Position numbers and translations under genes: made by a program
DNA from: Bifidobacterium polysaccharolyticum
GTDB lineage: Bacteria > Actinomycetota > Actinomycetes > Actinomycetales > Bifidobacteriaceae
DNA length: 64,000 nt
Assembly (NCBI RefSeq): GCF_016101585.1
Contig: NZ_JACFQG010000003.1
Location: forward strand, 1,826 to 65,825
Reading direction: 5' to 3'
In this document: piece by piece, positions 37,131-58,941 of the stretch
Numbering within the stretch: the stretch's first letter is position 1
How the letters are laid out: the number at the start of each line of letters is the position of its first letter
Notes under the pieces: model-generated
What the model saw: only the letters and a program-made list of their open reading frames with translations
Told to the model about the DNA's origin: nothing
Database searches by the model: none

Positions 37131-38168
37131 GTGCAGGTTAATCATCAAGATGCGAACGTCGTTTTGGACCGGGCCGTCGGGTCTCCCGCGTCCGAAGCGA
37201 CGCTGTCTCATAGTGCGCGAGCGTCCGCGCCGAAAAGGAAAAGACGGTTTCCAGGGAAGGTAGAATCCTCCAAGCGCCACGGTTTCAATCTTTGGCTCCT
37301 CATCGTTCCCCTTCTTATTTTCGTAGTTCTCTTCAGTTATCTCCCTCTGTTCGGGTGGGTTTACGCCTTCTTCGACTACCAGCCCCCTATCCCTCTGTCG
37401 AAGAGCAAATTCGTGGGCCTCCAGTGGTTCGAGATGATGATTCAGAACCCCGCTCAGCTCCGCGCGGTCTGGCAAGTGCTCATCAACACTTTCGGCATTA
37501 GCGGCCTGGGCATTCTGACCAGCATGTTCCCCCTCTTCTTCGCCATCGCTCTCAACGAGATTAGATCCCGTTGGTTCAAGAACGTCGTCCAGACATTGAC
37601 CACCCTGCCCAACTTCATCAGCTGGGTCCTGGTCTACGCCGTGGCATTCGCCATGTTCTCCTCCTCCGGAATGGTCAACGAGACCCTGATGGACCTCCAT
37701 CTGATCACAGACCCCATCAAGTTCCTCGATTCCGACTCGCACACCTGGCTGAAGATGATGGCCTGGGGCTTGTGGAAGGGACTGGGCTGGGGGTCGATCA
37801 TGTACCTGGCGGGCATCGCCGGCATTGATCCGGAGCTTTATGAGGCCGCTGAGGTGGATGGGGCCAACCGATTCCAGCAGATCATCCATGTGACGATTCC
37901 GCAGTTGATGCCCACCTACTTCGTGCTCCTGCTCCTGTCAGTCTCCAACTTCCTGAACAACGGGATGGATCAGTACTTTGTCTTCCAGAACGCCTTCAAC
38001 CTCAAGCACATCCAGGTGCTTGACCTCTACGTCTACAACGTGGGCATGGGTCAGAACAGCCTCTCTCTTGCGACGGCCATATCCATGCTGAAATCCCTGG
38101 TCAGTGTGGTCCTTTTGTTCCTGGTCAATTGGGCCTCCAAGCGGACCCGTGGCGAGTCAATCATCTGA
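37131..38168 (+). CDS. ABC importer permease, LplB type
   Basis: Inner-membrane permease of 345 residues of the LplB/YteP group used for complex plant-wall oligosaccharides. A basic N-terminal region (about 1-48) precedes helix NLWLLIVPLLIFVVLFSYLPLFG and the family's YAFFDYQPP...FVGLQWFEMM segment. The EAA loop is DPELYEAAEVDGANRFQQIIHVTIPQL (about 235-261). The GTG at 37131 follows AAGGAGG by 4-5 nt. It heads a plus-strand run reaching 52649. No ATPase is encoded with it. Confidence 0.9.
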   Translation: MQVNHQDANVVLDRAVGSPASEATLSHSARASAPKRKRRFPGKVESSKRHGFNLWLLIVPLLIFVVLFSYLPLFGWVYAFFDYQPPIPLSKSKFVGLQWFEMMIQNPAQLRAVWQVLINTFGISGLGILTSMFPLFFAIALNEIRSRWFKNVVQTLTTLPNFISWVLVYAVAFAMFSSSGMVNETLMDLHLITDPIKFLDSDSHTWLKMMAWGLWKGLGWGSIMYLAGIAGIDPELYEAAEVDGANRFQQIIHVTIPQLMPTYFVLLLLSVSNFLNNGMDQYFVFQNAFNLKHIQVLDLYVYNVGMGQNSLSLATAISMLKSLVSVVLLFLVNWASKRTRGESII

Positions 38169-38187
38169 GCATGGGGGGAAAACAATC

Positions 38188-39129
38188 ATGAGCGACAGCA
38201 TGGCAATCGAATCGAAGGGCGTTTCTCCCCTCCTGCAGCGGACCAAGGGCGAGAAGGTGTTCAATGTCTTCAACATCGTCTTCTTCATCCTCTTCGCCTT
38301 TATCTGTACATATCCTTTCTACTATCTGATCATCAACAGCATCTCCGACAACACCCTGAGTGCTGCCGGCAAGATCACCATTCTGCCCAAGGGAATCCAC
38401 TGGAGCAACTATGTGGAGGTCTTCAAGCTGGAGGGCCTGGGCACAGCAGCCATGGTCTCCCTGGGACGTACCGTGATCGGCGCTGCCCTGACCGTACTGG
38501 CCAGCGCCTTCCTGGGCTTCCTCTTCACCCAGGAGGGAATGTGGCATCGCAAGCTCTGGTACCGCTTCATCATCGTGACCATGTACTTCAATGCTGGTCT
38601 GATCCCCATGTTCATCACGATGAAGAACCTGGGTCTGACCAATAACTTCTGGGTGTACATTCTGCCGGCCATCGTGCAGCCCTTCAATATTATTCTGGTG
38701 AAGACCTACATCGAGTCCATCCCCAAGTCTCTCCAGGAGGCGGCCGAGGTGGACGGCGCCGGCACACTGACGGTCTTCTTCAAGATCGTCCTGCCCATGT
38801 GCACGCCAATCTTGGCCACGGTGGCCATCTTCTCGGCCGTGGGGCAGTGGAACTCCTTCCAGGACACCTTGATCTACATGACTGATTCAAAGCTCTACTC
38901 TCTGCAGTATCTGCTCTATCAGTACATCAACCAGGCAAGCTCCTTGGCCAGTGCAGTCAAGGCCAGCGCGGGCGGCGCCCTGAATATGGCGGCCCTGGCC
39001 ACCCAGCAGACCCCGACCTCAATTCGCATGACTGTTGCCGTGATCGTGGTGCTGCCCATCCTCTTTATCTACCCGCTCTTCCAGCGCTACTTCGTCAAGG
39101 GCATGATGCTCGGCGCCGTCAAGGGCTGA
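38188..39129 (+). CDS. ABC importer permease, YtcP/MalG type
   Basis: Partner permease, about 313 residues. The first helix VFNIVFFILFAFICTYPFYYLIINSISD, the AASAFLGFLFTQ-like stretch, the EAA loop KSLQEAAEVDGAGTLTVFFKIVLPMCTPILA (mid-protein) and the end FQRYFVKGMMLGAVKG are typical of YtcP/YteP-paired permeases. The ATG at 38188 is 19 nt after the LplB stop, with GGGGGAA upstream. Confidence 0.9.
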   Translation: MSDSMAIESKGVSPLLQRTKGEKVFNVFNIVFFILFAFICTYPFYYLIINSISDNTLSAAGKITILPKGIHWSNYVEVFKLEGLGTAAMVSLGRTVIGAALTVLASAFLGFLFTQEGMWHRKLWYRFIIVTMYFNAGLIPMFITMKNLGLTNNFWVYILPAIVQPFNIILVKTYIESIPKSLQEAAEVDGAGTLTVFFKIVLPMCTPILATVAIFSAVGQWNSFQDTLIYMTDSKLYSLQYLLYQYINQASSLASAVKASAGGALNMAALATQQTPTSIRMTVAVIVVLPILFIYPLFQRYFVKGMMLGAVKG

Positions 39130-39150
39130 TCGAGAGGAGGTGCAACCTAG

Positions 39151-39180
39151 CCGCCGTGCGGGCCTGATCCCACGCGGCGG
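39151..39180 (+). other. Strong intercistronic hairpin
   Basis: CCGCCGTG and CACGCGGCGG pair with a 2-nt bulge in the gap between the permease and binding-protein genes. It may set the ratio of membrane to binding components by protecting or ending transcripts. Confidence 0.45.
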
Positions 39181-39221
39181 CCAGGAAGCGTTCATGTCGA
39201 TTCATCAAGGAGGACAAATCG

Positions 39222-39493: not shown

Positions 39494-41242
39494 ATGCAAG
39501 CCAAGAAGCTGACGGCGGTGGCTGCCGCTGTCATAACCGTGTCCATGGCCCTGGCGGGCTGTGGCGGCGGAGACAATTCCGCCAACGAGAAGGACGACGG
39601 GTCGCTCATGCAGGTGGATGTCTTCGATGGTCTGGCCAACTACCAGGGCATCCAGAAGGGCTGGTTCGCCAAGATGGTCAAGGACAAGTTCAACCTCAAG
39701 TTGAACATCGTGGCCCCCAATGTGGCGGGCGGGGGTAGCACCCTCTTCGACACCCGTTCAGCAGCCGGGAACCTGGGTGACATCATTATCACCGGCTCCG
39801 GCTCCGGCCAGGCGGCCAAGCTGGTCAAGTCCCACCTGATCGAGGACATGACGCCGTACATGAAGAATGCGAAGAACATCAAGAAGTACAAGTCCGCCAC
39901 CGACGCCCTCAACAAGGTGGCCGGGCAGACAAGCGGGGTCTGGGGGGTGCCCGGGTCGGTCACTTCTCTGCCTCCCACGGAGCCCTCCGAGGGGCTGGAG
40001 CCCACCTTCGGCCCCTACGTGCGGTGGGACATCTACAAGGAGGTAGGCTATCCCAGGATCGCCAACATGGATGACCTGGTCAATGTCCTCAAGCAGATGC
40101 AGGACAAGGCCCGGGCCGATACCGGCGACAAGAGCATCTACGCCATGTCCCTCTTCAAGGACTGGGACGGCAACATGATGAACAACGCCAAGCAGCCCAC
40201 CTGCTACTACGGTTATGACGAGATGGGCTTCGTTCTGGCCAAGGCCGATGGCTCTGACTACCAGTCGGTCACACAGAAGGGCGGGATGTACGAGAAGGCC
40301 CTCCAGTTCTTCAATAAGGCATCACAGGCTGGCCTGGTCGACCCCGAGTCGACCACCCAGAACTACGACACCATGTACGCCAAGTACCAGCAGGGCAAGA
40401 TCCTCTTCTCCTTCTGGCCATGGCTGGGGCAGGCCGCCTACAACACCACGGACAACAAAGCACAGGGCAAAGGCTTCATGATCGCCCCGCTGGAGGACAT
40501 GAAGATCTTCTCCTATGGCGCCACGCCTGATGGGGGCAGCACCTTCATCGCTCTGGGTTCCAAGGCCAAGAACAAGCAACGCTTGGTCAACTTCATCGAC
40601 TGGCTTTACTCGCCTGAGGGGGTCTACGCCTCCGGTGCCCAAACCGGCGGATCCGCTGGTCCTAAGAACCTGAACTGGACGGTCAAGGACGGCAAGCCGG
40701 TTCTGACCGATTTCGGCGAGAAGGTCCTCTTCGGCAACGGTGCCAACGTGCCGGCGGATTGGGGTGGCGGCACTTATAAGGACGGGGTTTCGGCCTTGAA
40801 CTACCCGACTGTGATCGTCCAGGACAAGGATCCCTCCACGGGCTACCCCTACAACGCCAGTATGTGGCCTTCGCAGCTGGCCAAAAACACGGACCCGCTG
40901 AGCACTGACTGGTCCGCCCACATGGGCGGGGCCAAGACTACCATGGAATATTTGAAGAAGAACGACAAGATCATGGTGGCCCCCGGTTCCAGCTACGTGA
41001 CCCCGGACGAGTCCTCCCAGATCAAGACCCTCCGCGGCCAGGTGAAGACCGAGATCGTCAACGCCTCCTGGAAGGCCTCTTTCGCCAAGGATGACAACGA
41101 GTTCAATGCCCTCCTCGATGAGATGCGCTCCAAGGTTGACGGGATGGGCTACAAGCAGGTTCTCGATGTGGACATGAAGGACGCCAAGGACCAGAATACG
41201 GCCCGGGTAAACATCAAGAAGCAATTCGAAGACAAGAAGTGA
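39494..41242 (+). CDS. ABC importer binding lipoprotein 1 (LplA-like)
   Basis: Surface lipoprotein of about 582 residues. The signal peptide MQAKKLTAVAAAVITVSM leads to lipobox MALAGC (Cys at about 19-20) and a Gly-rich, acidic linker. The mature domain shows YQGIQKGWFAKMVKDKF, LFDTRSAAGNLGDIIITG and KARADTGDKSIYAMSLFKDWDGNMMNNA. It belongs to the large LplA-type family-1 proteins that pair with LplB/YtcP permeases. AAAGGGG lies 5-6 nt before the ATG. It is closely similar, along its whole length, to the next gene. Main differences lie in the ligand-facing middle (SVTSLPPTEPSEGLEPTFG versus the other copy) and near residue 390. Confidence 0.9.
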   Translation: MQAKKLTAVAAAVITVSMALAGCGGGDNSANEKDDGSLMQVDVFDGLANYQGIQKGWFAKMVKDKFNLKLNIVAPNVAGGGSTLFDTRSAAGNLGDIIITGSGSGQAAKLVKSHLIEDMTPYMKNAKNIKKYKSATDALNKVAGQTSGVWGVPGSVTSLPPTEPSEGLEPTFGPYVRWDIYKEVGYPRIANMDDLVNVLKQMQDKARADTGDKSIYAMSLFKDWDGNMMNNAKQPTCYYGYDEMGFVLAKADGSDYQSVTQKGGMYEKALQFFNKASQAGLVDPESTTQNYDTMYAKYQQGKILFSFWPWLGQAAYNTTDNKAQGKGFMIAPLEDMKIFSYGATPDGGSTFIALGSKAKNKQRLVNFIDWLYSPEGVYASGAQTGGSAGPKNLNWTVKDGKPVLTDFGEKVLFGNGANVPADWGGGTYKDGVSALNYPTVIVQDKDPSTGYPYNASMWPSQLAKNTDPLSTDWSAHMGGAKTTMEYLKKNDKIMVAPGSSYVTPDESSQIKTLRGQVKTEIVNASWKASFAKDDNEFNALLDEMRSKVDGMGYKQVLDVDMKDAKDQNTARVNIKKQFEDKK

Positions 41243-41401: not shown

Positions 41402-43153
41402 ATGAAGAAGAGCAAACTCGCAGTGGTGATGGCAGCGGTGCTGTCAGCCTCGCTGGCCTTGGCCGGCTGTGGCGGCGGAGGAGACAACTCGGCCAACGAG
41501 AAGGATGACGGCTCCTTGATGAAGGTGGACGTCTATGACGACCTGGCCAACTACCAGGGCATCCAGAAGGGCTGGTTCGCCAAGTTGATCAAGGACAAGT
41601 TCAACCTCAAGTTGAACATGATCTCGCCCAATGTGGCCGGCGGTGGCAGCACTCTCTTCGATACCCGTTCGGCAGCCGGGAACCTGGGCGATCTGGTCAT
41701 CACCGGAGCTGGCAACGGCAGACTGACCAAGTTGATCAAGGCCCACCTGATCGATGACATGACACCGTACCTGAAGAATGCCAAGAACATTAAGAAGTAC
41801 AAGTCCGCCACCGATGCCCTCAACAAACTGGCTGGGCAGAGCAGCGGGGTCTGGGGGGTGCCGCAGAGCGTCTCCACCAAGAGCCCGACCGACCCCTCCG
41901 AAGGTAACGAGCCTGTTTTCGGCCCTTACATCCGCTGGGACTACTACCGTGAGATTGGCTACCCCAAGTTCAACAACCTGGATGACTTCCTGCAGGTTCT
42001 CAAGCAGATGCAGGACAAGGCCCGGGCAGATACCGGCGACAAGAATGTCTATGCCTTCTCCCTCTTCAAGGACTGGGACGGCAACATGATGAACAACGCC
42101 AAGCAGCCCACAACCTACTTCGGCTACGACGAGATGGGCTTCGTTCTGGCCAAGGCCGATGGTTCTGACTACCAGTCGGTCACCCAGAAGGGCGGGATGT
42201 ACGAGAAGGCCCTCCAGTTCTTCAACAAGGCCAACCAGATGGGCTTGGTCGACCCCGAGTCCTCCACCCAGAACTACGACACCATGTCGAACAAGTACAA
42301 GCAGGGTAAGATCCTCTTCTCCTTCTGGAGCTATCTTGGTCCTGCCGCTTACAACACCACGGAAAATAAGGCCCAAGGCAAGGGCTATATGCTGGCCCCC
42401 ATGGGTGACATGAAGATCTTCTCCTACGGAGCCACCCCCAATGGCGGCGCCGCCATTATCGCTGTCGGGTCCAAGGCCAAGAACAAGCAACGCTTGGTGA
42501 ACTTCATCGACTGGCTCTATTCCAAAGAGGGCGTCTATGCCATGGCCGGCAATGTCAAGGGTATGAACTTCGACATCAAGGACGGCAAGCCCGAGCTGAC
42601 CGACTTCGGCAAGAAGCTTCAGAGCGACAAGTCCTCCAAGGTCCCCGCCCAGTTCGGCGGCGGCTCTTACGCCGACGGTGTATCTGCCCTGAACTTCACC
42701 ACTGAGCTGGCCACTGACATCGATCCTGATACCAAGGAGCCCTACGACTCCAGCATGTGGAAGTCCACCATTGACCAGTTCAGCAACTCGGCCCTGGACA
42801 AGGATTGGTCCGAGCACATGGACGGGGCCAAGACCTCCATGCAGTATCTGGAGAAGGCGAACAAGCTCATGATCGCCCCCGGCTCCAGCTTCATCCAGCC
42901 CGATGAGTCCTCCCAGATCTCTACCCTGCGTGGTCAGGTGAAGACCGAGATCGTCAACACCTCCTGGAAGGCAGTCTTCGCCAAGGATGACAACGAGTTC
43001 AACAGCCTAATGGACGAGATGCGTTCCAAGGTCGACGGACTGGGCTTCAAGCAGGTACTGGATGTGGACATGAAGAATGCCAAGGACCAGAACACGGCCC
43101 GTGTCAACATCAAGAAGCAGTTCGCCAATCGCGAGAAGTCGGAAAGCAACTGA
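41402..43153 (+). CDS. ABC importer binding lipoprotein 2 (LplA-like), tandem paralogue
   Basis: Lipoprotein of about 583 residues. Signal MKKSKLAVVMAAVLSASLAL, lipobox LALAGC (Cys at about 23), then the same NSANEKDDGSLMKVDVYDDL start of the mature part as the preceding gene. Long blocks are identical to it, for example NVAGGGSTLFDTRSAAGNLG and AKADGSDYQSVTQKGGMYEK, so the pair arose by duplication. AAGGAAACC precedes the ATG at 41402. Two binding proteins for one permease pair would widen the ligand range, for instance differently decorated oligosaccharides. That role is inference. Confidence 0.9.
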   Translation: MKKSKLAVVMAAVLSASLALAGCGGGGDNSANEKDDGSLMKVDVYDDLANYQGIQKGWFAKLIKDKFNLKLNMISPNVAGGGSTLFDTRSAAGNLGDLVITGAGNGRLTKLIKAHLIDDMTPYLKNAKNIKKYKSATDALNKLAGQSSGVWGVPQSVSTKSPTDPSEGNEPVFGPYIRWDYYREIGYPKFNNLDDFLQVLKQMQDKARADTGDKNVYAFSLFKDWDGNMMNNAKQPTTYFGYDEMGFVLAKADGSDYQSVTQKGGMYEKALQFFNKANQMGLVDPESSTQNYDTMSNKYKQGKILFSFWSYLGPAAYNTTENKAQGKGYMLAPMGDMKIFSYGATPNGGAAIIAVGSKAKNKQRLVNFIDWLYSKEGVYAMAGNVKGMNFDIKDGKPELTDFGKKLQSDKSSKVPAQFGGGSYADGVSALNFTTELATDIDPDTKEPYDSSMWKSTIDQFSNSALDKDWSEHMDGAKTSMQYLEKANKLMIAPGSSFIQPDESSQISTLRGQVKTEIVNTSWKAVFAKDDNEFNSLMDEMRSKVDGLGFKQVLDVDMKNAKDQNTARVNIKKQFANREKSESN

Positions 43154-43394: not shown

Positions 43395-44072
43395 ATGCTC
43401 CCATTTGAAAAAAATTCAAGGATTGTCTTCTGTGGAGACTCGGTCACTGATGTCAACCGTGATTACAAGGCCGTTCCAGCCGGCTGGGGCTCCTTCGGCG
43501 ACGGCTATGTCAACCTGGTCCACGCCCTTCTTACCGCAGTCTATCCTGATCGGGAACTCATGATCATGAACGAGGGAGTCAGCGGAGACGACATCAAGTT
43601 GATGGCAGCCCGGTGGGACAGGGATGTGCTCGATATGAAGCCCGACTACGTCTCCGTTATGATAGGAATCAATGATGTCTGGCGTCACTTCGACGGTCCC
43701 TTCCGCCAGGCGGACCTGGTCTCTTTGGATGAATTCGAACAGACCTACGAGGATCTGATGGGCAGGACCGAACCTCGTGTCAAGGGCCTGATTGTCATGA
43801 GTCCCTTCATGATGGAGCCCAACAGGGATGATCCGATGAGGGCCATGGTCGACCGTTATGCCGAGGTGGCAAGGCAGGTGGCGGACCGGCATGGAGCCAC
43901 CTACGTGGATGTCCAGGCCGCCATGGACCACTTCCTCGAGAAACAGAGCAGCTACATACTCAGCATGGACCGTTGCCACCCTGGGGTTGAGGGGCATATG
44001 CTGGTGGCTAGGACCTGGCTCCAAGCCGTCGGCTTTGATTGGGAAAGGACCACATTCGATGATGAAAAGTGA
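43395..44072 (+). CDS. SGNH/GDSL-type esterase
   Basis: Cytosolic esterase of about 225 residues. Block I is IVFCGDSVTD (about 9-18, catalytic Ser in GDS), block III GINDVW (about 91-96, with the conserved Gly-x-Asn-Asp), and block V DRCHPGVEGH (about 194-203, catalytic Asp and His). No signal peptide is seen. Homologues include acetylxylan-type deacetylases, so removal of acetyl groups from imported glycans is a fitting role here. The ATG at 43395 starts just before block I; the longer open frame upstream looks non-coding. Its end overlaps the GH29 gene by 14 nt. Confidence 0.85.
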   Translation: MLPFEKNSRIVFCGDSVTDVNRDYKAVPAGWGSFGDGYVNLVHALLTAVYPDRELMIMNEGVSGDDIKLMAARWDRDVLDMKPDYVSVMIGINDVWRHFDGPFRQADLVSLDEFEQTYEDLMGRTEPRVKGLIVMSPFMMEPNRDDPMRAMVDRYAEVARQVADRHGATYVDVQAAMDHFLEKQSSYILSMDRCHPGVEGHMLVARTWLQAVGFDWERTTFDDEK

Positions 44073-45582
44073 ACAGGAGCCCCGTCCCCTGCGAGAAGAC
44101 GTAGTCGGGGCCGACAATCTTTCGCGGGTGGATGACGAGATCAGCCGTGGCGCCTTCAAGGCCGATTGGGCCTCCCTGTGCGCCATGGAGCCCCCCACCT
44201 GGTTCGCCGATGCCAAGTTCGGCATCTTCACCCACTGGGGCCTATACAGCGTGCCCGCCTACAATAACGAGTGGTACTCGCGCAACATGTACATCAAGGG
44301 GTGCCCGGAGTTCGACCACCACGTGAAGACCTATGGACCCCAGAAGGAGTTCGGCTACAAGGACTTCATCCCCATGTTCAAGGCGGAGCGTTTCGACCCC
44401 GACCAGTGGCTGGACCTCTTCCGCCGGGCTGGCGCTCGCTACTACATGCCCGTGGCCGAGCACCACGACGGATTCCAGATGTACCGCAGCGAACTGTCGG
44501 AATGGAACGCCTTCGACAAGGGGCCCCACCGCGACCTGATAGGTGAGCTGCGGCGGGCCACTCTGGATCAGGGCCTTCACTTCGCCCTGTCCGACCACCG
44601 GGCTGAGCACTGGTGGTTCATGGGCCACGGGCAGGAGTTCGACAGCGACGTGCATCAGCCTATGAAGAGGGGCGACTTCTACTGGCCTGCCATGCCCGAG
44701 CCTGACAACCAGGACCTCTTCAGCAAGCCCTATCCCACCAAGGAGTACCTGGACGATTGGCTCCTTCGGGTCTGCGAGGTGATCGACGCCTATCGGCCCG
44801 AACTCCTCTATTTTGACTGGTGGGTCCAGCATGAGGCGTTCAAGCCTTATTTGCAGCGCCTTGCCGCTTACTACTACGACCGGTCCGTGGAGTGGGGGGC
44901 CCCGACCGCCATCTGTTACAAGATGGACGGCATGGCCTGGGGTTCGGGCATCGTAGACGTGGAGCGCGGCGGCTTCGCCAACCCCACCCCCTTCGTCTGG
45001 CAGACGGACACTGCCATCGCCCGCAACTCCTGGTGCCACACGACCACCCTGGATCACAAGTCGGTGGCTGAAATTCTGGCCGCCCTCCTCGACGCGGTCA
45101 GCAAGAACGGCAATCTCATGCTCAACATTGGTCCTTGCGCCGACGGATCCATCGACCCCGAGGAGGAGGAGATGTTGGAATCCATCGGTCGTTGGATGGA
45201 TGTGAACGGGGAAGGAATCTATGGATCCCGCCCCTGGTGGATCGCTCAGGAGGGCCCCACCCACCCGGCAGAGGGGTCCTTCGCGGACCAGACCGAGGCC
45301 GTCTTCACCTCCGAGGATTTCCGGTTCACCTCAGCATCAGGCGCTATCTACGCCTACCAGCTCAAGCCGTCCGCTGATGGGCGGGCCCTGATTAAGGCCT
45401 TCGCCCCACGCGGCAAGGAGGGGTCGGTCTTTCAGGGGATTGTCCGCCAGGTCAGCCAGTTGGGTGCAGGACCAGTTAACTACCAGCTGACGGACCAGGG
45501 ACTGGAGGTTCGGGGCCTCAAAGACCCGGTCGGGGCCACAGCCACCGGCCTGCCTCTGGGCATCCGGATCGACGTGGAGTGA
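44059..45582 (+). CDS. GH29 alpha-L-fucosidase
   Basis: Cytosolic fucosidase of about 507 residues. N-terminal catalytic barrel: KFGIFTHWGLYSVPAYNNEWY (split here as KFGIFTHWG and YSVPAYNNEWYSRNMY, about 54-78), EHHDGFQMY (about 134-142), and the nucleophile Asp in ELLYFDWW (about 248). NGNLMLNIGPCADGSI near 350 is a GH29 hallmark, followed by a C-terminal beta domain. The acid/base is variable in this family and not assigned. AAAGGA lies 9 nt before the ATG, which overlaps the esterase gene. Together with GH31 and GH42 it fits removal of fucose from fucosylated xyloglucan side chains. Confidence 0.9.
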   Translation: MMKSEQEPRPLREDVVGADNLSRVDDEISRGAFKADWASLCAMEPPTWFADAKFGIFTHWGLYSVPAYNNEWYSRNMYIKGCPEFDHHVKTYGPQKEFGYKDFIPMFKAERFDPDQWLDLFRRAGARYYMPVAEHHDGFQMYRSELSEWNAFDKGPHRDLIGELRRATLDQGLHFALSDHRAEHWWFMGHGQEFDSDVHQPMKRGDFYWPAMPEPDNQDLFSKPYPTKEYLDDWLLRVCEVIDAYRPELLYFDWWVQHEAFKPYLQRLAAYYYDRSVEWGAPTAICYKMDGMAWGSGIVDVERGGFANPTPFVWQTDTAIARNSWCHTTTLDHKSVAEILAALLDAVSKNGNLMLNIGPCADGSIDPEEEEMLESIGRWMDVNGEGIYGSRPWWIAQEGPTHPAEGSFADQTEAVFTSEDFRFTSASGAIYAYQLKPSADGRALIKAFAPRGKEGSVFQGIVRQVSQLGAGPVNYQLTDQGLEVRGLKDPVGATATGLPLGIRIDVE

Positions 45583-47792: not shown

Positions 47793-47923
47793 CTGGATTG
47801 CATAAATGAAAACGCTAATGGATGCATGTGCTCGTAGGCTTCCCCTCCGATTGGAGATCCTGCCGTCAGGGCGGTGCATCCCTTATCGATACAGCCTTAT
47901 CGGCAGAAAGAAGTGGATGGTTC

Positions 47924-50609: not shown

Positions 50610-52649
50610 ATGAAACCCACATTCAGCAGCTTCCTGTTCGGGGGCGATTGGAATCCGGAACAGTGGCCGGAGGACACTTGGGAACAGGACATCGAAAAGC
50701 TCGAGGACGCCCACATCAACGAGGCCACCATCAACGTCTTCTCCTGGGCCCTTCTGCAACCTTCGGAAGACGGATATGACTTCTCCATGCTGGATAAGAT
50801 TGTGGCCCTCCTGGTCAAGCACCGGTTCAACATCGTCATGGCTACGGGGACGGCGGCCCTGCCTGCCTGGATGGTCAGGACCCACCCAGAGGTGATTCGG
50901 ACCGACCAGGAGGGCAGGCATCGCGTTTTCGGTGGCCGACATAACTTCTGCCCCACCAGTGAATACTTCCGACAGGCATCCGGGGCTCTGGCAGACCACC
51001 TGGCCGAACGCTACGCCGCCACCCCGGGCCTGGTGGCCTGGCATGTGGGCAACGAGTACGGCGGTGGCGGCGGCCTGTGTTACTGCGAGGGCTGTGCCCG
51101 GGCCTTCCGTGTCTGGCTGAAGGAGAAGTACGGCACGGTCCAGGCCCTCAACCAGGCCTGGTGCACCAACTTCTGGAGCCACACCATCTACGACTGGGAT
51201 GACGTGGTTCCACCCGTGACCTACGGCGACGGGATCGGTGAGAACAAGTGTGTGATCTCCGGGTTGCAGATGGATTACCGCCGCTTCCAGGAGCAGGCAC
51301 AACTGGCCTGCTTCACCAATGAGCGCGATGCCATCCGCCGTCACGACGGTTCCACGCCGATCACCACCAACCTGATGGGGACCTTCAAGGACCTGGACTA
51401 CTTCGAGTGGGCCCAGCAGATGGACTTGGTCAGCTGGGACAACTATCCGGGCATGGACACCCCACCCAGTTTCACCGCAATGTCCCACGACCTTATGCGG
51501 GGGGTGGGCGGCGGCCGACCCTTCATGCTGATGGAGCAGACGCCCAACCAGCAGAACTGGTTCCCCTTCTGCAAGGTCAAGCGGCCCGGCGAGGTCCGCA
51601 AACTCAGTTGGGAGGCCGTGGCCCATGGGGCCGACACGGTGCAGTTCTTCCAGATGAAACAGTCCCGGGGTGGCTGCGAGCGCTTCCACGGGGCTGTCAT
51701 AGACCACAGCGGCAGTGAGGAATCCCGGGTCTTCAAGGAGACCGCTGCCCTGGGGGCCGAGCTGGATCGGGTGGGGGCCCGTCTCATGGGTAGCCGAGTG
51801 GTGGCCAGGGTGGCCATGATGTTCGACTGGCAGAGCTACTGGTCCCTGGAAGGTTGCATAGGACCCACGGCAGGCTTCTCCTACCCCCAGGAGGTCCACC
51901 GCTTCTACCGCCCCCTTTACCGCCGCAACCTGGCTGTGGATTTCATCTCCAGCACGTCCCCGGTCGAGACACTGAAGAAGTATGACCTGATCCTGGCCCC
52001 GGCTCTGATTTCGCTATTGCCCGGTGTGGCAGACCACCTGGAGTCCTATGTGTCCGACGGTGGCACCTTCGTCACCGGTTATATGGCTGGTATCCACGAT
52101 GAACGCGACCTGGTGGTTCCAGGCGGGTATCCGGGTGTTCTGAAGGGGCTGACCGGGGTCTGGGTCGAGGAGATCGATGCCCTGGCGCCTGACGAAACCA
52201 TACCGGTGGAGGGCCTGGCAACTGCTGACGGCCAGCCTGCCGGTCAGATCGTGGCCAGCCTGATTCATTGCGAGGGAGCCAAACCCCTTGCCACCTACGG
52301 GGGCGGCGACTTCTACGCCGGCAGCCCGGCCCTGACGGTGAACGATTTCGGCAGGGGGAGGGCCTACTTCGTTGGCACTCCTTTGGACGAGGCCGGCATG
52401 GATGCCTTCATGGATCCCATCATTGACAGCCTGGGGCTCCCCGCGGTCGATACTCCCAAGGACGTCAGCCTTTCCATTCGCCAATCGGATGACGGGACAC
52501 GGTATGCCATTGTGATCAACTCGGCCCACTCGCCAGTCACCACCGACCTTCCCCTCCTGAGGGGCGGTGAGGAACTCTTGGGCGGTGGCCGAGTGTCTGG
52601 CCCATTGGACCTGCCTCCCTACGGGGTGGCTCTGGTCGCGCTGGCCTGA
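50610..52649 (+). CDS. GH42 beta-galactosidase
   Basis: Cytosolic GH42 enzyme of about 679 residues, the normal size. GGDWNPEQWPEDTW at the N-terminus, acid/base Glu in WHVGNEYG (about 141-148), the Cys cluster CYCEGCARAF just after it, and nucleophile Glu in FMLMEQTPNQQNW (about 303-315). Trimerisation (beta-galactosidase A4-like) and C-terminal domains follow. GAAGGAG lies 7 nt before the ATG at 50610. It is last in the plus-strand run, which fits removal of galactose from xyloglucan side chains, although many bifidobacterial GH42 enzymes act on milk or galactan oligosaccharides. Confidence 0.93.
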   Translation: MKPTFSSFLFGGDWNPEQWPEDTWEQDIEKLEDAHINEATINVFSWALLQPSEDGYDFSMLDKIVALLVKHRFNIVMATGTAALPAWMVRTHPEVIRTDQEGRHRVFGGRHNFCPTSEYFRQASGALADHLAERYAATPGLVAWHVGNEYGGGGGLCYCEGCARAFRVWLKEKYGTVQALNQAWCTNFWSHTIYDWDDVVPPVTYGDGIGENKCVISGLQMDYRRFQEQAQLACFTNERDAIRRHDGSTPITTNLMGTFKDLDYFEWAQQMDLVSWDNYPGMDTPPSFTAMSHDLMRGVGGGRPFMLMEQTPNQQNWFPFCKVKRPGEVRKLSWEAVAHGADTVQFFQMKQSRGGCERFHGAVIDHSGSEESRVFKETAALGAELDRVGARLMGSRVVARVAMMFDWQSYWSLEGCIGPTAGFSYPQEVHRFYRPLYRRNLAVDFISSTSPVETLKKYDLILAPALISLLPGVADHLESYVSDGGTFVTGYMAGIHDERDLVVPGGYPGVLKGLTGVWVEEIDALAPDETIPVEGLATADGQPAGQIVASLIHCEGAKPLATYGGGDFYAGSPALTVNDFGRGRAYFVGTPLDEAGMDAFMDPIIDSLGLPAVDTPKDVSLSIRQSDDGTRYAIVINSAHSPVTTDLPLLRGGEELLGGGRVSGPLDLPPYGVALVALA

Positions 52650-52719: not shown

Positions 52720-53559
52720 TCAGACGGCCGGCTCCCCCTGCCCCCTGAAGGTCCGCTTGATCCAGGCGGCCGCGAGACGTGGCCAGATCTGTACGCAGGG
52801 TTCGATTCCATTGGTTCCCTGCCAGGCGGTCTCTTCGGTCCCCAGGCCCAGACCGTGACCTCCGTGGGGGAAGAGGTGGGCTTCCACGCTGACGCCAGCC
52901 TGCTTGCACGCTTCTACTAGCATGAGGGTGTTCTCCGGAGGGACCAGGCCATCCTCCATGGTGTGCCAGACGAATACGGGCGGGGTCTTGCTGTCTATGT
53001 GCTTCTCGATGGAAACCGCCTCTAGGGCCTCAGGGTCCTCCTTCTTGTCGCCCAAGAGGTGGTCGATGCTCCCTCGGTGGGCGAGGGGGCCGGAGGTGAT
53101 GACCGGATAGCCCAGCATAAGACCGTCGGGGCGGACGGCGTCGGGGTCGTAGCCGTGGGGCCTGAGGTCCTGGTCTCCGGCGGTCGTGGCCAGGTTGGCT
53201 GCCAGGTGGCCGCCGGCTGAGAAGCCCATGATGCTGATGGCCTTGGGGTCCACGTGCCACTGCTCGGCATGCTCACGGATGCGCTTCATGGCTTCAGCCG
53301 CTTCGACCAGGGCTGTCGGGTACACGGAGGGCCAGCAGGAATAGCGCAGGACGAAGGCATTGCAGCCAGCCGCCAGGAACTGTACGGCGATGGGCTCGGC
53401 CTCCCTGTCCGAGGTCATCTCATAGCCGCCCCCGGGGATGACCAGGACCGATGGGCGGACCCGGTCCGGCACTACCTCCTCGCTGTTGTCCAGGCTGTAG
53501 CCGACGAACTTGGCCCGGCTGCCGTCAATCCCCTCAATCTCCTGCTCGAAATACTGCAT
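52720..53559 (-). CDS. Alpha/beta hydrolase, xylan/acetyl esterase-like
   Basis: Cytosolic esterase of 279 residues in the BD-FAE / endo-xylanase B-like family. Oxyanion loop VIPGGGYEMTSDRE (about 40-53), nucleophile Ser in IMGFSAGGHLAANLA (about 109-123), acid Asp in WHTMEDGLVPPENTL (about 205-219), and His in PHGGHGLGLG (about 239-248). Such enzymes remove acetyl groups from plant-wall sugars. It lies 76 nt downstream of the cellobiose phosphorylase gene on the same strand, so the two form an operon, converging on GH42. It is a second candidate deacetylase in the locus beside the SGNH enzyme. Confidence 0.85.
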   Translation of the reverse strand: MQYFEQEIEGIDGSRAKFVGYSLDNSEEVVPDRVRPSVLVIPGGGYEMTSDREAEPIAVQFLAAGCNAFVLRYSCWPSVYPTALVEAAEAMKRIREHAEQWHVDPKAISIMGFSAGGHLAANLATTAGDQDLRPHGYDPDAVRPDGLMLGYPVITSGPLAHRGSIDHLLGDKKEDPEALEAVSIEKHIDSKTPPVFVWHTMEDGLVPPENTLMLVEACKQAGVSVEAHLFPHGGHGLGLGTEETAWQGTNGIEPCVQIWPRLAAAWIKRTFRGQGEPAV

Positions 53560-53635: not shown

Positions 53636-56137
53636 TTAGAAGGTCACGGTCACGTCTACGGGATTTTCGCTGGTCTGGGGTGGTACTATCCCGCCACTCA
53701 GTTCGTGGCCGTCCAGGCTGACCGAACGCCTTCCAGTCCGCTTCATGGAAATCCGATAGGTGACCCCCCTCCAGGCCCTGCCGATGGTCAATTCGTTGAA
53801 TTCGGTGGGCAGGTGGGGTTCGATAGCCAGCCCGTCCAAGGTGGGCCTGACCCCCAGCAGGTACTGGGAGACATCCACGAAGGACCAGGCGGCCGTGCCT
53901 GTCAGCCAGGAGTTCTTTCCCTCGCCGGGGGTGGGGGACTCGGGACCGGCCATCATCTGGCAGTAGACGTAGGGTTCCACCTTGCGGATGTCGGACTTCT
54001 CCTCGAGGTAGGCCGGGCAGGTACGCCTGTAGACTGCAAAGGCCTCCTCGTCATCGCCGACCATGGCGTTGGCTATGGAGATCCAGGGGTTGACGTGGCA
54101 GAAGATACCGCCATTCTCTTTGTAACCCTTTGGATAGGAGGAGATTTCGCCCAGTTCGATCCGGTAGGTGGAATAGGCGGGGGCCAGGATGGCGGTACCC
54201 CAGGAGGAGGTCAGCCTCTCCTTGACCGAGGTCAAAGCCTGTCGGGCCTTGCCGTCACCAAGACCAATACCGGCCATCACGCACATCCCCTGAGGTTCGA
54301 TGTAGATCTGCCCCTCAGTGTCAGTGTGGGAACCGACAGGACGGGAGTAAGCATCGTAGGCCCTGAGGAACCACCGGCCGTCCCAGCCGGCACCCTCCAC
54401 GGCATGGGTCATCTTCTCGATGGCCTGGCGGATCGTGGCAGTCTCCTGGGCCACAGCCTCCCTGCCCATCCCGCAATCCGTTCCGTAATGGTCGAGGATG
54501 TCGGCGTAGTGGCCGGCGTAGAGGACGAACATGCCTCCGATCAGAACCGACTCAGCCACGCCTGTGTCATTGTTCTCGACGGTCTGGAAACTCTCTCCCG
54601 GCGTATCGGAGAAGCAGTTGAGGTCAAGGCAGTCATTCCAATCGGCCCGTCCGATCAGGGGGAGCTTATGCGGACCCAGGTGGTTCATTGTGAACCCGAC
54701 CGATCTGCGTAGGTGCTCCAGGAGGGGCTCTTCGGTCTTTTCCACATTGTTGAAGGGGACGGGCTCCTCCAGGATGGAGGAATCCCCGGTCTCGGCCAGG
54801 TAGGCGTAGGTACCGGCCACCAGCCAGAGAGGGTCATCGTTGAAGCCGCCGCCAATGTCGGCGTTCCCTCTCTTGGTCAGGGGCTGGTACTGATGCCAGG
54901 CCGACCCATCCTCCAGCTGGGTTGAGGCGATGTCGATGATGCGCTGACGGGCGCGGCCGGGGATCAGGTGGACGAAGCCCAGGAGATCCTGGTTGGAGTC
55001 GCGGAAGCCCATTCCCCTCCCCGTGCCCGACTCGAAATAGGATGCCGAACGCGAAAGGTTGAAGGTGACCATGCACTGGTACTGATGCCAGATGTTGACC
55101 ATCCGGTCCAGGCGAGGATCGCCGCTGTCCACGGTGAACCGACCCAGAAGGTCGGCCCAATAGGCCTTGAGGTCGGCGAAAGCCTGGTCGACCTGGTCGT
55201 CCCTTCTGAATCGGTCGAAGAGGGCGTGTGCGGGTTTCTTGTTGATGATTCCCACCTTGGCAGGGTCATCCGGGTCCTCCCACTTGTCTTCCTTGGGCAA
55301 CTGGACATAGCCCAGGATGAATACCAGGCTCTCCTCCTGGCCGGGGTCCAGGGATAGCCTGACCCTGTTGGCGGCTATGGGGAACCAACCGTGCGCAACA
55401 GAGTTGTGGGCTCTGCCTTCGGTGATGGCCTGGGGAGTGTCCCAGCCGTTGAACCGACCCAGGAATTCGTCTCTGCTGGTGTCGAACCCGCAGGTATGTC
55501 GGTTGACGCTGAAGAAGGCGTAATGGTTCCGGCGTTCCTTGTACTCGGTCTTGTGGTAGAGAAGGGTGGCTTCTGGTCCCTGCTCGACCTCCACTTCGCC
55601 TGTAGACAGGTTGCGCTGGAAGTTGCTGGAGTCGTCCACGGCGTTCCACAGGCACCACTCCACGCAGCCGGTCACATCCAGGAGGACGGGAGAGTCGGTG
55701 GTGTTCCTGATTCTCAGACGGTTGATTTCGGCATCGGCATCCACGGGAACGAAGGCGGTCATGACCGTGTCGATCCCCTTGTAGGAGGATTCGAAGACGG
55801 TATATCCGGTCCCCTGGCGGCAGCTGTACCGGTCAAGGGGGGTCCTGGAGGGCAGGAAGGTGGGGGACCAGGTGGCTAGGGGGGCGGACTCTGGGTTGTC
55901 CCGATTCATGAGGCTCAGGTAGTAGTTGCGGCTGCCATTGTCGGCAGGTATCCCGTTGTAGCGGTAGCGGGTTATCCTCTGGAGCTTGGCGTCTTTATAA
56001 AAAGAGTAACCGCCGCCTGTGTTGGAGATGAGGGAGAAGAAGTCCTGGTTGCCCAGATAGTTGATCCAGGGCAGCGGGGTGGCGGGTGTGTCGATGACAT
56101 ACTCCCTGGCTGCGTCGTCAAAATGACCGTATTGCAT
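53636..56137 (-). CDS. GH94 cellobiose phosphorylase
   Basis: Cytosolic phosphorylase of 833 residues, the family length. NQDFFSLISNTGGGYSFYKD (about 30-49), CVEWCLWNAVDD, the SGTGRGMGFRDSNQDLLGF block (about 367-385), and the catalytic acid Asp in GRADWNDCLDLNCFSD (about 497-512) match cellobiose phosphorylase closely. Substrate His/Thr and phosphate-binding segments KGYKENGGIFCH follow. It converts cellobiose and phosphate to glucose 1-phosphate and glucose, saving ATP on the backbone of an imported glucan. GGAGAAC precedes the ATG. It is transcribed away from the TetR regulator across a 408-nt region. Confidence 0.95.
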   Translation of the reverse strand: MQYGHFDDAAREYVIDTPATPLPWINYLGNQDFFSLISNTGGGYSFYKDAKLQRITRYRYNGIPADNGSRNYYLSLMNRDNPESAPLATWSPTFLPSRTPLDRYSCRQGTGYTVFESSYKGIDTVMTAFVPVDADAEINRLRIRNTTDSPVLLDVTGCVEWCLWNAVDDSSNFQRNLSTGEVEVEQGPEATLLYHKTEYKERRNHYAFFSVNRHTCGFDTSRDEFLGRFNGWDTPQAITEGRAHNSVAHGWFPIAANRVRLSLDPGQEESLVFILGYVQLPKEDKWEDPDDPAKVGIINKKPAHALFDRFRRDDQVDQAFADLKAYWADLLGRFTVDSGDPRLDRMVNIWHQYQCMVTFNLSRSASYFESGTGRGMGFRDSNQDLLGFVHLIPGRARQRIIDIASTQLEDGSAWHQYQPLTKRGNADIGGGFNDDPLWLVAGTYAYLAETGDSSILEEPVPFNNVEKTEEPLLEHLRRSVGFTMNHLGPHKLPLIGRADWNDCLDLNCFSDTPGESFQTVENNDTGVAESVLIGGMFVLYAGHYADILDHYGTDCGMGREAVAQETATIRQAIEKMTHAVEGAGWDGRWFLRAYDAYSRPVGSHTDTEGQIYIEPQGMCVMAGIGLGDGKARQALTSVKERLTSSWGTAILAPAYSTYRIELGEISSYPKGYKENGGIFCHVNPWISIANAMVGDDEEAFAVYRRTCPAYLEEKSDIRKVEPYVYCQMMAGPESPTPGEGKNSWLTGTAAWSFVDVSQYLLGVRPTLDGLAIEPHLPTEFNELTIGRAWRGVTYRISMKRTGRRSVSLDGHELSGGIVPPQTSENPVDVTVTF

Positions 56138-56334: not shown

Positions 56335-56363
56335 TTGACTAAGATGATAGCATTCATTAATAA
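56335..56363 (+). promoter_or_regulatory. Promoter of the tetR-type gene
   Basis: TTGACT (56335-56340), 17-nt spacer, TAATAA (56358-56363). It would give a leader of about 175 nt. Confidence 0.5.
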
Positions 56364-56471
56364 ACCCATAGATAAGCGTGTGTGGATTTCCTTTAATGGT
56401 TGAAATCATGCGGCGACTAACAGTTCGGAACCCCAAGGGTCGGGAATGTTGGAGGCGCTTGCAGTTATGAT

Positions 56472-56545: not shown

Positions 56546-57367
56546 ATGACCGGCGTAGAGGATTGGAACCAGTACCGGGCCGGCAAGAGGGTCACCGGAT
56601 CCGGCCCAACGGTCGGATCCACTTTCTCGGAGAACCCTCGTGCTCGTCAGGTGTTTACCGGCAAGGCCTTCACCCGGCGCAAGCGGATGACCGCCGATGA
56701 ACGCAGGGACCAGATTGTGAAGGCTGCCGTCAAGGTGATTGCCGTCAAAGGCTTTTGGGGGATGTCCCTGCAGGACGTGGCCGATCAGGTAGGCATCACA
56801 GAGGCCGCTCTCTACCATTACATCAACTCCAAGAACGACCTGTTCAGCATGGTCATGGAGCAGGCCTATGACTCTCCTGAAGCCGACGAATTCATCTACA
56901 AGACCTGTACGGGGACGGATGCGGACGGACACAGCCTCCTCTTCTTCCCCCGATTCTGCGCCAACAACGTTATTTTCAATGCTCGCAGGCCGGAGATGGT
57001 CAAGCTCTTCTCCATCCTGAACGGTGAGGCTCTCAGCCCTTCACACCCAGCTCACCGCTATTTCATAGGCCGCAACCAGAAGTTCTGGCAGACCATCAAG
57101 TCACTGAACTGGTGCCTGCCCAGAGGGTACGACCTGGACCGTTTCCACCACATGTGGATGCTGTGCATGTCGGCCATGGATGGCCTGCAATACCGCTGGC
57201 TGGCGGACGGGTCAGCCGACCTGGTGGCCGAGTGGCTCGCCTTCTCCGACGAGCTCTTCCCCCAGGAGAAATGGCATGGGTTCATGGACCCCAGTGACAT
57301 CGACCCGGATTCTGAAGAATGCCTGGCTTCCTACGGCCTTATCACGGGTGGGGGGCAGACAGCTTAG
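56546..57367 (+). CDS. TetR/AcrR-family transcriptional regulator
   Basis: Regulator of 273 residues. The HTH lies at about 52-98 (RRDQIVKAAVKVIAVKGFWG, LQDVADQVGITEAALYHYINSKNDL). A 50-residue basic/polar N-terminal extension precedes it, longer than usual, but the start is fixed by AAAGGAGG 5 nt before the ATG. The C-terminal ligand domain is helical with many aromatic residues (FIGRNQKFWQTIKSLNWCLPRGYDLDRFHHMWMLCM). It lies between the GH94 gene and the GH1 gene, so it probably controls one or both in response to a sugar. TetR-type regulation of glycan genes is less common than LacI-type. Confidence 0.88.
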   Translation: MTGVEDWNQYRAGKRVTGSGPTVGSTFSENPRARQVFTGKAFTRRKRMTADERRDQIVKAAVKVIAVKGFWGMSLQDVADQVGITEAALYHYINSKNDLFSMVMEQAYDSPEADEFIYKTCTGTDADGHSLLFFPRFCANNVIFNARRPEMVKLFSILNGEALSPSHPAHRYFIGRNQKFWQTIKSLNWCLPRGYDLDRFHHMWMLCMSAMDGLQYRWLADGSADLVAEWLAFSDELFPQEKWHGFMDPSDIDPDSEECLASYGLITGGGQTA

Positions 57368-57458
57368 GAACGGCAGCTTCGTTCAGACGGCGTCTGCAGT
57401 GGGACGGCGGCCGCCAAGGGTATCCGTCGGCTGAAGGACAGCAAATGATTGCAAGCGG

Positions 57459-57472
57459 GTAAAGCGCTATGG
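57459..57472. promoter_or_regulatory. GC-centred palindrome before the GH1 gene
   Basis: GTAAAGCGCTATGG contains the AAGCGCT core shared with LacI-type operators at 19388 and 19499. It lies 30 nt before the chosen GH1 start and overlaps an upstream ATG. Confidence 0.45.
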
Positions 57473-57501
57473 ATATGAAAGAAACGAAAGAGAGGATTGG
57501 C

Positions 57502-58941
57502 ATGGGCCAAGAGAGCAAGTTCATCTTCCCGTCCGATTTCACTTGGGGAACGGCCACGGCCGCCTTCCAGGTGGAAGGGGCGGCACATGAGGACGGCAGG
57601 ACGGATTCCATCTGGGACACATATTGCGCCCGACCGGGCGTAGTCGTCGACGGATCCAACGGTGATGTGGCCTGCGATCAGTATCACCGCTACCCGGAAG
57701 ACATAGCCCTGATGAAGCAGATGGGTGTCGGCGCCTACCGCATGTCCATATCCTGGTCCCGTATTTTTCCTACAGCCGGCGGTCCGGTGAACCGAGCCGG
57801 GCTGGACCACTACCTGAAGGTCCTTGATATGCTGCGTGACAATGGAATCAGGCCCGTCGTCACCCTATACCACTGGGACCTTCCCCAGTACCTACAGGAT
57901 GCCGGAGGTTGGCCCAGCAGGGACACAGCTCTCCGTTTTGGCGACTACGCCTCCGCCCTGGCCGCTTCCTTCGGCGATCGGGTGGACACCTGGACCACCC
58001 TGAACGAGCCTTGGTGCGCGGCTTACCTGGGTTATGGGAACGGGGCCCATGCCCCCGGGATCAAGGACTACGACCAGGCCTTGGCCGCCGTCCACCATCT
58101 GAACCTGGCCCATGGACTGGCCTGCCAGGCCATCAGGGCCCAGGTTGGGCAGGATGCCCGACTCTCGGTCACCCTCAACCTTCAGGTGACCCGGGCGGCC
58201 TCGGACAGCCCGGAGGACCTCGCCGCCAAGAAGAGGGCCGACCTCTTCGCCAACGAGGTCTTCCTGGCCCCCATGCTGGAGGGGGCTTATCCGGAAGGCG
58301 TCAGTCAGGCGGCGAGGGGGGACACCGACTGGCGCTTCGTGCAGGACGGTGACCTGGAAACCATCCACCAGCCCCTTGACGTCCTGGGATTGAACTACTA
58401 CGCCACCACCTATGTAAAGGCCAGGAGGGCTGATGACGAATCCGCCGATGCCTCGGTCGGTCCCGAGGGCAAGCTGGTCGATCGCCATGCCAACGCTATG
58501 CCGGCCCAGGATAGCGTGGAGGGGCAGGCCCCGCAGGGAGAGCTGACGGGAATGGGCTGGAACCAGGAACCCCAGGGTCTGACCGATGTGCTGGTGGAGA
58601 TGGGCCGACGTTTCCCCGACATGGAACTCATGGTGACCGAGAACGGCTCCGCCTGGGATGACCAGGTCAGTCAGGATCCGGACGCGCCCGGCGGGAAGAT
58701 CGTCCACGACCCCAAGCGGGTGGCCTATCTGGAAGAGCATGTCAAGGCTGTGGCCAAGGCCATTCAGGCCGGGTGTCGGGTGACCGGCTACTTTGCCTGG
58801 TCCCTGCTGGACAACTTTGAGTGGGCCCTGGGCTACACCAAGCGCTTTGGGTTGATCAGGGTCGACTATGACACCCAGGAGCGGATCTGGAAGGATTCCG
58901 GTCTGCGTTACGCGCAAATCATCCGTGATCGCGCAGTCTGA
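57502..58941 (+). CDS. GH1 beta-glucosidase
   Basis: Cytosolic beta-glucosidase of about 479 residues. N-terminal signature FPSDFTWGTATAAFQVEGA (about 8-26), LYHWDLPQYLQ (about 120-130), acid/base Glu in TTLNEPWCAA (about 162-171), LNYYATTYVKA, and nucleophile Glu in MVTENGSAWDD (about 375-385). YFAWSLLDNFEWALGYTKRFGL closes the barrel. GAGAGGA lies 5-6 nt before the ATG at 57502; the upstream in-frame ATG at 57469 has no ribosome site and overlaps a palindrome. It likely finishes cleavage of cello-oligosaccharides released in the locus. Confidence 0.92.
   Translation: MGQESKFIFPSDFTWGTATAAFQVEGAAHEDGRTDSIWDTYCARPGVVVDGSNGDVACDQYHRYPEDIALMKQMGVGAYRMSISWSRIFPTAGGPVNRAGLDHYLKVLDMLRDNGIRPVVTLYHWDLPQYLQDAGGWPSRDTALRFGDYASALAASFGDRVDTWTTLNEPWCAAYLGYGNGAHAPGIKDYDQALAAVHHLNLAHGLACQAIRAQVGQDARLSVTLNLQVTRAASDSPEDLAAKKRADLFANEVFLAPMLEGAYPEGVSQAARGDTDWRFVQDGDLETIHQPLDVLGLNYYATTYVKARRADDESADASVGPEGKLVDRHANAMPAQDSVEGQAPQGELTGMGWNQEPQGLTDVLVEMGRRFPDMELMVTENGSAWDDQVSQDPDAPGGKIVHDPKRVAYLEEHVKAVAKAIQAGCRVTGYFAWSLLDNFEWALGYTKRFGLIRVDYDTQERIWKDSGLRYAQIIRDRAV

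Follow-up and report, generated by a model that had tools for sequence, protein, structure and literature searches.

A 64,000-nt stretch of Bifidobacterium polysaccharolyticum (GCF_016101585.1; contig NZ_JACFQG010000003.1, positions 1,826 to 65,825, forward strand), hereafter the window, carries at 37131-58941 fourteen genes for a transporter and glycan-active enzymes, all of them long open reading frames in a listing of the sequence. The plus strand encodes, in order, two permeases, two lipoproteins (SBP1 and SBP2), an SGNH enzyme and members of glycoside hydrolase (GH) families GH29, GH31, GH5, GH43 and GH42, followed later by a TetR-family regulator and a GH1 enzyme, and the minus strand encodes an esterase and a GH94 phosphorylase between GH42 and tetR (Table 1). 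Genes from SGNH to GH42 are mostly tightly spaced (SGNH and GH29 overlap by 11 bp; the GH5-GH43 gap is 12 bp). Judged from gene content and conservation, the locus is very probably a system for the import of xyloglucan oligosaccharides and their depolymerisation in the cytoplasm.

Table 1. Features of the xyloglucan-type locus and its upstream flank (window coordinates)
Feature	Position	Strand	Remarks
Remnant of deleted secreted endoglucanase	35553..35612	-	ends with 46 bp of the 3' end of the relatives' GH5-X2-CBM46 coding sequence
Junction with tRNA side	35613-35649		blastn break points
tRNA gene beside deletion	35700..35772	-	Rfam RF00005, 64.9 bits
ABC permease 1	37131..38168	+	BPD_transp_1 74 bits; as assembled probably a chimera, 5' part from first transporter copy
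81-bp exact repeat	37984..38064		also at both ends of contig C11, same genome; likely assembly collapse point
ABC permease 2	38188..39129	+	BPD_transp_1 47 bits
Lipoprotein substrate-binding protein SBP1	39494..41242	+	lipobox LAGC
Lipoprotein substrate-binding protein SBP2	41402..43153	+	lipobox LAGC; 74% identical to SBP1
SGNH acetylesterase-like enzyme	43395..44072	+	Lipase_GDSL_2 91 bits; acetyl xylan esterase 4oap 213 bits
GH29 alpha-L-fucosidase/alpha-L-galactosidase candidate	44062..45582	+	Alpha_L_fucos 316 bits
GH31 alpha-xylosidase (predicted), YicI type	45659..47686	+	GH31 333 bits; NF007940 1150.6 bits
GH5, GH5_4-like endo-beta-1,4-glucanase/xyloglucanase	47822..49003	+	GH5 148 bits; no signal peptide seen
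GH43 alpha-L-arabinofuranosidase/beta-xylosidase candidate	49016..50518	+	GH43 227 bits, with GH43_C2
GH42 beta-galactosidase	50610..52649	+	Glyco_hydro_42 469 bits; 3tts 715 bits
Alpha/beta-hydrolase esterase	52720..53559	-	BD-FAE 75 bits (BD-FAE/Abhydrolase_3)
GH94 cellobiose phosphorylase (predicted)	53636..56137	-	GH94 473 bits
Candidate operator	56353..56376		14/18 consensus positions; gap between GH94 and tetR
TetR-family regulator	56546..57367	+	TetR_N 41 bits
GH1 beta-glucosidase	57469..58941	+	Glyco_hydro_1 515 bits; best PDB match 1gnx 522 bits

Pfam and NCBIfam profiles assigned the enzymes at family level without doubt, with scores far above chance. Every gene named in an earlier sequence-only reading of the locus was recovered as a long open reading frame; the TetR-family regulator had been absent from its list. 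GH31 is the strongest anchor for the predicted alpha-xylosidase assignment: it exceeded the cut-off of the NCBIfam alpha-xylosidase equivalog NF007940 almost twofold (cut-off, 606 bits), scored 820-823 bits against YicI structures in a PDB sequence search, and carries the motif KTDFGERIP, noted in that reading, in alignment with the same stretch of Escherichia coli YicI. Seven GH31 matches were found in the genome, the locus GH31 being by far the best to its own YicI-type query, and a xylose isomerase is also present. In a GH31 tree the five bee rows grouped together (99/100), deeper splits among Bifidobacteriaceae, Enterococcus and others were open or weak, and one outgroup branch was very long. 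The nearest named genomes by GH31 (99%) were Bifidobacterium choladohabitans, B. mellis and strain 7101; these species are described as Apis mellifera isolates (PMC9429759), which would place the window in the honey-bee clade.

The remaining enzymes were compared with solved structures in the same way. GH94 matched PDB cellobiose phosphorylases at 965-1028 bits (the top entry is a chain labelled lactose phosphorylase), chitobiose phosphorylase at 368 bits and cellodextrin phosphorylase at 61 bits at most, and these scores ally it with the cellobiose phosphorylases rather than with those for chitobiose or cellodextrin. Relatives of GH5 were 6xrk (254 bits), 3zmr from Bacteroides ovatus (165 bits), 6xsu (labelled 'GH5-4') and the xyloglucanase 2jep (156 bits), and several of the top ones appear among the GH5_4-related structures in PMC4817029. 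GH43 matched the beta-xylosidase 5z5d (325 bits), then BoGH43B (245 bits) and BoGH43A (239 bits) from the B. ovatus xyloglucan locus, of which BoGH43A strips both arabinofuranose and beta-xylose from xyloglucan oligosaccharides (PMC10952531). For GH29 the best match was exo-alpha-L-galactosidase 7ljj (417 bits), the nearest plain alpha-L-fucosidases reaching half that score (207 bits); in view of this closest structure, alpha-L-galactose may be a substrate of GH29 in addition to or in place of alpha-L-fucose, and J side chains of xyloglucan carry L-galactose where fucose would stand (PMC4844278). The SGNH enzyme was nearest to acetyl xylan esterases. The claim that the enzymes lack secretion signals agreed with a hydropathy scan (not a dedicated predictor), in which no signal-peptide-like hydrophobic stretch was seen near their starts, those of the GH42 beta-galactosidase and GH1 beta-glucosidase included.

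The two lipoproteins (582 and 583 amino acids) lie beside two permeases of an apparent ATP-binding cassette (ABC) importer. The sequence-only reading had called the permeases LplB/YtcP; no family model confirmed this, the only sugar-permease matches being below cut-off, and its 'LplA-like' label for the lipoproteins was not borne out, no Pfam family reaching E 1e-3 for either. By phmmer, SBP1 matched a PDB sugar-binding protein weakly (E 2e-4). No ATPase is encoded among the locus genes, and one MalK-type OB domain ATPase was found in the genome, on contig C7. In strain 7101, a third binder (60% to SBP1) lies between GH42 and the esterase (L047 18147-19892).

SBP1 was searched against 189 Bifidobacteriaceae genomes, and up to 20 kb around the best match was inspected in 33 genomes other than the window's own and those of four bee relatives with the locus (G008, G010, G012 and G016). 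Among the matches listed, 58 of 189 genomes matched at E 1e-3 and 38 were close (E 1e-150 or better). At identity cut-offs of 35-50% by gene, and with some pieces ending at contig ends, so that the counts are lower bounds, the flanks held GH29 in at least 32 of the 33, GH31 in 31, permease 2 in 29, permease 1 in 28, GH3 in 28, GH42 in 26, a YesL-like membrane gene in 25, the esterase in 23, GH43 in 22, a TetR relative in 21, SGNH in 16, GH94 in 10, a secreted-type GH5 in 5, the window-type GH5 in 5 and GH1 in 1. The usual order is YesL (minus strand), permease 1, permease 2, binder, (SGNH), GH29, GH3, GH31, (GH5), (GH43), GH42. Such a system had been held to be unusual for Bifidobacterium; this is wrong, because binder and neighbourhood recur across the family, and XG-1 islands have been described in the marmoset bifidobacteria MARM_A1, B. 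myosotis and B. hapali (PMC8406136). Loci in Enterococcus, of a different phylum, share permease 1-permease 2-binder-SGNH-GH29, with GH31 nearby. Within the window's GTDB genus (27 genomes), a close binder is present in six (G000, G008, G010, G012, G016 and G011). Neither the window nor any of ten bee-clade pieces yielded the GH3 that is usual in the family's loci, for which reason GH1 must stand in for it.

Genomes with and without the binder offered further observations. In G001 a relative of SBP1 has decayed into pieces with stop codons (C1, 28910-29944) and the locus is lost. A protein mannosyltransferase gene (PMT) adjoins the window locus and 5 of the 33 other loci, and in B. asteroides ESL0199 it lies beside another GH31 cassette; this recurrence of PMT next to the locus or a GH31 cassette in several genomes suggests that the PMT-flanked place is an old position. 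An MFS-GH78-GH1-GH31-GH3 cassette lies beside the same VTT gene as the window's permeases in G008 (L076 3313-14320) and B. asteroides ESL0199 (L041 4279-15208), and its GH31 is of a second alpha-xylosidase-like type (77% to the window's GH31).

The transporter genes are probably misassembled. Contig C11 of the same genome (7,206 bp) begins and ends with the 81 bp found at window 37984-38064, and codes for a second copy of permease 2, two more binders (54-55% to SBP1), YesL (minus strand) and a permease 1 truncated at the contig end. This permease 1 is 96% like the permease 1 preceding permease 2 in the four relatives; the window's permease 1 resembles the first-copy permease of G008 at 92%, but the permease before permease 2 in the four relatives at only 75-77%. 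These matches indicate that the assembly probably collapsed at the 81-bp repeat and that the permease 1 gene as assembled is probably a chimera. The simplest reading of the true order is VTT, first-copy permease 1, the C11 segment, permease 2 and SBP1, amounting to two transporters and four binders; C11 would then carry one of these transporters, the second, and probably also the promoter that really drives the main operon. The collapse would also account for the poor alignment of the region upstream of the window's permease with that of the bee strains. Alternatively, the short order VTT-permease 1-permease 2 could be real, produced by true recombination between repeats, with C11 elsewhere or extrachromosomal; the assembler did join straight across 37984-38064, and recombination between the copies would yield an identical sequence. 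We consider this unlikely: C11 has exactly the same repeat at both ends, it ends in the YesL-permease 1 arrangement that stands before permease 2 in 25 of the 33 other genomes and in the four bee relatives, and the one-contig genome of G008 carries the C11 segment in line at the matching place. Users of the window should be aware that its assembly probably conceals a second transporter.

A candidate operator was derived from 32 regions upstream of permease 1, with sites before GH31 lying outside this discovery set. The palindrome TATTTA-N8-TAAATA occurred in 21 of the 32 regions (in 20 shuffles, no palindrome did better than 2), and the inverted-repeat consensus was CTTATTTAT-N6-ATAAATAAG, with 18 consensus positions. 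When the 33 loci (631,596 bp) were scanned, 50 sites with at least 16/18 positions were found in 21 loci, none within a matched gene, and ten shuffles gave 0; the other 12 loci held none at this threshold. By place, 24 sites lie in the YesL/permease 1 gap, 2 more before permease 1, 14 before GH31 and 7 before TetR, GH94, the esterase, GH1 or GH42, the remaining 3 being without a near gene. The best site in the window's genome is at C11 position 6217 (15/18), before the probable true permease 1, and a regulatory step at permease 1 thus leans on the collapse reading. The candidate in the window's GH94-tetR gap has an equivalent in the same gap in G010, G016 and G012. In a control set (328,075 bp), matches of at least 14 were window 56353, L099 4067 and L100 8876, all in the GH94-tetR gap, together with L083 8045 (17/18, GH94-tetR gap of another genome) and 15024 (16/18, near a weak GH3-like match); since matches lie in such gaps, this set is not wholly free of the cluster. 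In Enterococcus only 14/18 matches were found (four, in three of four loci, two of them inside or at the end of a permease gene) and none above, and no extension of the operator to Enterococcus loci is claimed.

BgrT TetR-family regulators have been predicted for bifidobacterial glucoside genes (PMC4746261). As in those regulons, which combine a TetR gene next to glucosidase, galactosidase and phosphorylase genes with palindromic sites of 18-22 nt, a TetR protein here neighbours glycosidase genes, and a palindromic motif marks the promoters thought to be regulated; unlike here, the searched text of that paper names no xyloglucan, xylosides, alpha-xylosides or GH31. CTTATTTAT-N6-ATAAATAAG is therefore put forward as a candidate TetR (BgrT-like) operator, and the TetR protein, a relative of which lies near the binding protein in 21 of the 33 other genomes, as the natural candidate regulator of the predicted regulon. 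Another palindrome, CTTTGGTAAAACCAAAG at 37038-37054, was rejected as an operator: it has one perfect copy, gave 2 matches with up to three mismatches against a shuffle mean of 1.76, and occurs in none of 85 loci. In L121-L124 and L132, half-sites read TGTTTA.../...CAACA or similar, both arms being changed, as though operator and regulator had evolved in concert.

Upstream of the locus, a secreted endoglucanase gene has been deleted. By blastn, the match to the corresponding piece of G012 (L078) stops at window 35612/L078 6193 and resumes at window 35650/L078 8230, so that 2,036 bp (L078 6194-8229) are absent, comprising the gene start and all but 46 bp of a GH5-X2-CBM46 gene. G010 and G016 gave the same break points, and G008 is arranged differently. 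Since part of the coding sequence remains, the difference is a loss here and not a gain in the relatives. The missing product (629 amino acids in G012, where its gene sits between GH1 and the tRNA) has a Sec-type start (MKRFRLF...APAASA-DT), CBM_X2 and CBM46, and is nearest to 5e09, 5xrc and 4v2x, which belong to the tri-modular GH5_4 enzymes that act on both beta-glucan and xyloglucan (PMC4817029). Each of the four bee relatives has two GH5 genes and the window's genome one; strong GH5 matches occur in these five of the 27 genus genomes only, a sixth (G002) having two weak matches. A related secreted-type GH5 lies inside the locus in five more distant genomes, e.g., B. tsurumiense (G239, L038). 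In G173 and G160 (L113 and L108) both GH5 types stand side by side in the locus; in the bee relatives they stand at a distance. A small second ABC/GH1 cluster (window 31010-35475), just upstream, ends at the deletion scar.

No secreted endo-xyloglucanase of its own was found in the genome: its one GH5 is unsecreted and GH9, GH16 and GH12 had no match (GH74 was not searched); a GH44 search also gave no match, but its control was silent too. Having lost the secreted GH5-X2-CBM46 enzyme, the strain would depend on oligosaccharides released by others, and probably lives on fragments that they cut. A tentative extension, to which we give somewhat less than even weight, is that this is a recent scavenger lineage that lost the secreted enzyme and kept, and even duplicated, its importer (four binders, two permease pairs), forming one side of a natural cheater/producer pair within a guild of bifidobacteria of the bee gut to which a xyloglucan regulon has come down by common inheritance.

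Taken together, the genes would work as follows. The binders would pass branched oligosaccharides (XXXG-type, decorated with galactose, fucose or L-galactose, arabinose or beta-xylose, and acetyl groups) to a CUT1-type importer powered by an ATPase encoded elsewhere; in relatives, the secreted GH5-X2-CBM46 enzyme could release these oligosaccharides. Inside the cell, deacetylation would fall to the two esterases, removal of the fucosyl or L-galactosyl cap to GH29, that of galactose to GH42, and that of arabinofuranose or beta-xylose to GH43. GH31, on non-reducing-end alpha-xylose, and GH1, on the glucose thereby exposed, would alternate from the non-reducing end, GH5 would shorten long chains, and GH94 would phosphorolyse the final cellobiose to glucose-1-phosphate and glucose, conserving energy. 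TetR would probably act as a repressor at the candidate operator, both for the transporter operon and for the GH94/tetR pair. The sequence-only reading had proposed a complete intracellular route; the enzyme set does fit oligosaccharides dismantled inside the cell, but with the endoglucanase deleted and GH9, GH16 and GH12 unmatched, 'complete' does not hold.

Several observations weigh against this reading. In PDB sequence searches the binders matched sugar-binding proteins weakly at best, and these are smaller (423 amino acids); the best solved relatives of GH43 and GH29 are a plain beta-xylosidase and an alpha-L-galactosidase, and the bee-clade pieces inspected lack the GH3 beta-glucosidase that 28 of the 33 other genomes have. 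No good operator lies upstream of the window's own permease (best score, -1.3), and the shuffle control is lenient and overstates independence because related intergenic sequences share motifs by descent. B. callitrichos strains, which may or may not carry this locus, grew only weakly on cranberry xyloglucans (optical density, 0.16; PMC6096940). The main substrates of the locus might instead be cellodextrins and beta-glucan of the unbranched or mixed-linkage kind, the alpha-xylosidase and the side-chain enzymes being accessory. GH5_4-like enzymes have a wide substrate range (the secreted BlCel5B type has 34 U/mg on beta-glucan and 15.7 U/mg on xyloglucan; PMC4817029), and GH94 and GH1 suit cellodextrins. 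This we regard as improbable: GH31, GH29 and GH42 rank with the genes that accompany the binder most consistently, whereas GH94 (a count that the 20-kb limit lowers in part) and GH5 rank with the least consistent. Host or microbial fucosylated glycans are a scarcely credible substrate: GH29 and GH42 occur in host-glycan pathways too, but an alpha-xylosidase, a GH5 endoglucanase and a cellobiose phosphorylase have no place there, and no hexosaminidase was seen among the locus genes scanned.

Xyloglucan-oligosaccharide use, the preferred reading, has counterparts elsewhere. The closest experimental model is that of Ruminiclostridium cellulolyticum (PMC4780118), which imports large xyloglucan oligosaccharides through an ABC importer and degrades them with cytoplasmic GH42 (Gal42A), GH31 (Xyl31A) and GH3 (Glu3A), leaving cellobiose, presumably for a cellobiose phosphorylase; the locus here has GH1 in place of GH3, adds GH29, GH43, GH5 and two esterases, and has TetR instead of a two-component system, with no cellulosome. 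Anaerocellum bescii (Athe_2052-2054/2057; PMC12710961) likewise combines a CUT1 importer, a large binder (551 amino acids; XXXG, Kd 14 nM), an adjoining GH31 gene and a shared ATPase elsewhere; its binder has a cluster G fold, whereas the binders here are compared by sequence. The B. ovatus XyGUL (PMC4967831, PMC10952531) shares GH5, GH31 and GH43 activities, and its enzymes are among the PDB relatives of our GH43 and GH5, but its uptake is periplasmic and Gram-negative and its GH31 is not a close relative of the YicI type. XG-1 islands, compared by their description, have beta-glucosidases, alpha-xylosidases and alpha-fucosidases in Bifidobacterium loci and probably belong to the same family of loci (PMC8406136).

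Elsewhere in the window, 18210-29677 encodes a protein of 1235 amino acids that contains SOGP domains (1,2-beta-oligoglucan phosphorylase type), adjoining a LacI regulator and an oligopeptide-type ABC system (SBP_bac_5, permease-size open reading frames and a double ATPase), possibly a beta-1,2-glucan oligosaccharide locus. The window opens within a 23S rRNA gene, with a 5S gene next to it (1-1917), near the contig start.

Bees eat pollen. Pollen-tube xyloglucan of Arabidopsis thaliana consists mainly of fucosylated, O-acetylated XXFG and XLFG (PMC4844286), a composition that would suit a fucosidase and esterases where the host feeds on pollen. Literature searches yielded no paper on bee bifidobacteria using xyloglucan; the regulon and the loss of the secreted enzyme are new here, the locus type itself being already known in bifidobacteria. 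Far from being rare as supposed, xyloglucan-oligosaccharide use emerges as an old and conserved trait of Bifidobacteriaceae, pollen-fed bee symbionts included, that is probably regulated by TetR, and the locus supplies a candidate operator open to test. If the scavenger reading is true, near kin among these strains differ in a public-goods trait. The near-isogenic relatives, some of which have the secreted enzyme and some of which lack it, make cross-feeding on plant cell-wall fragments directly testable.

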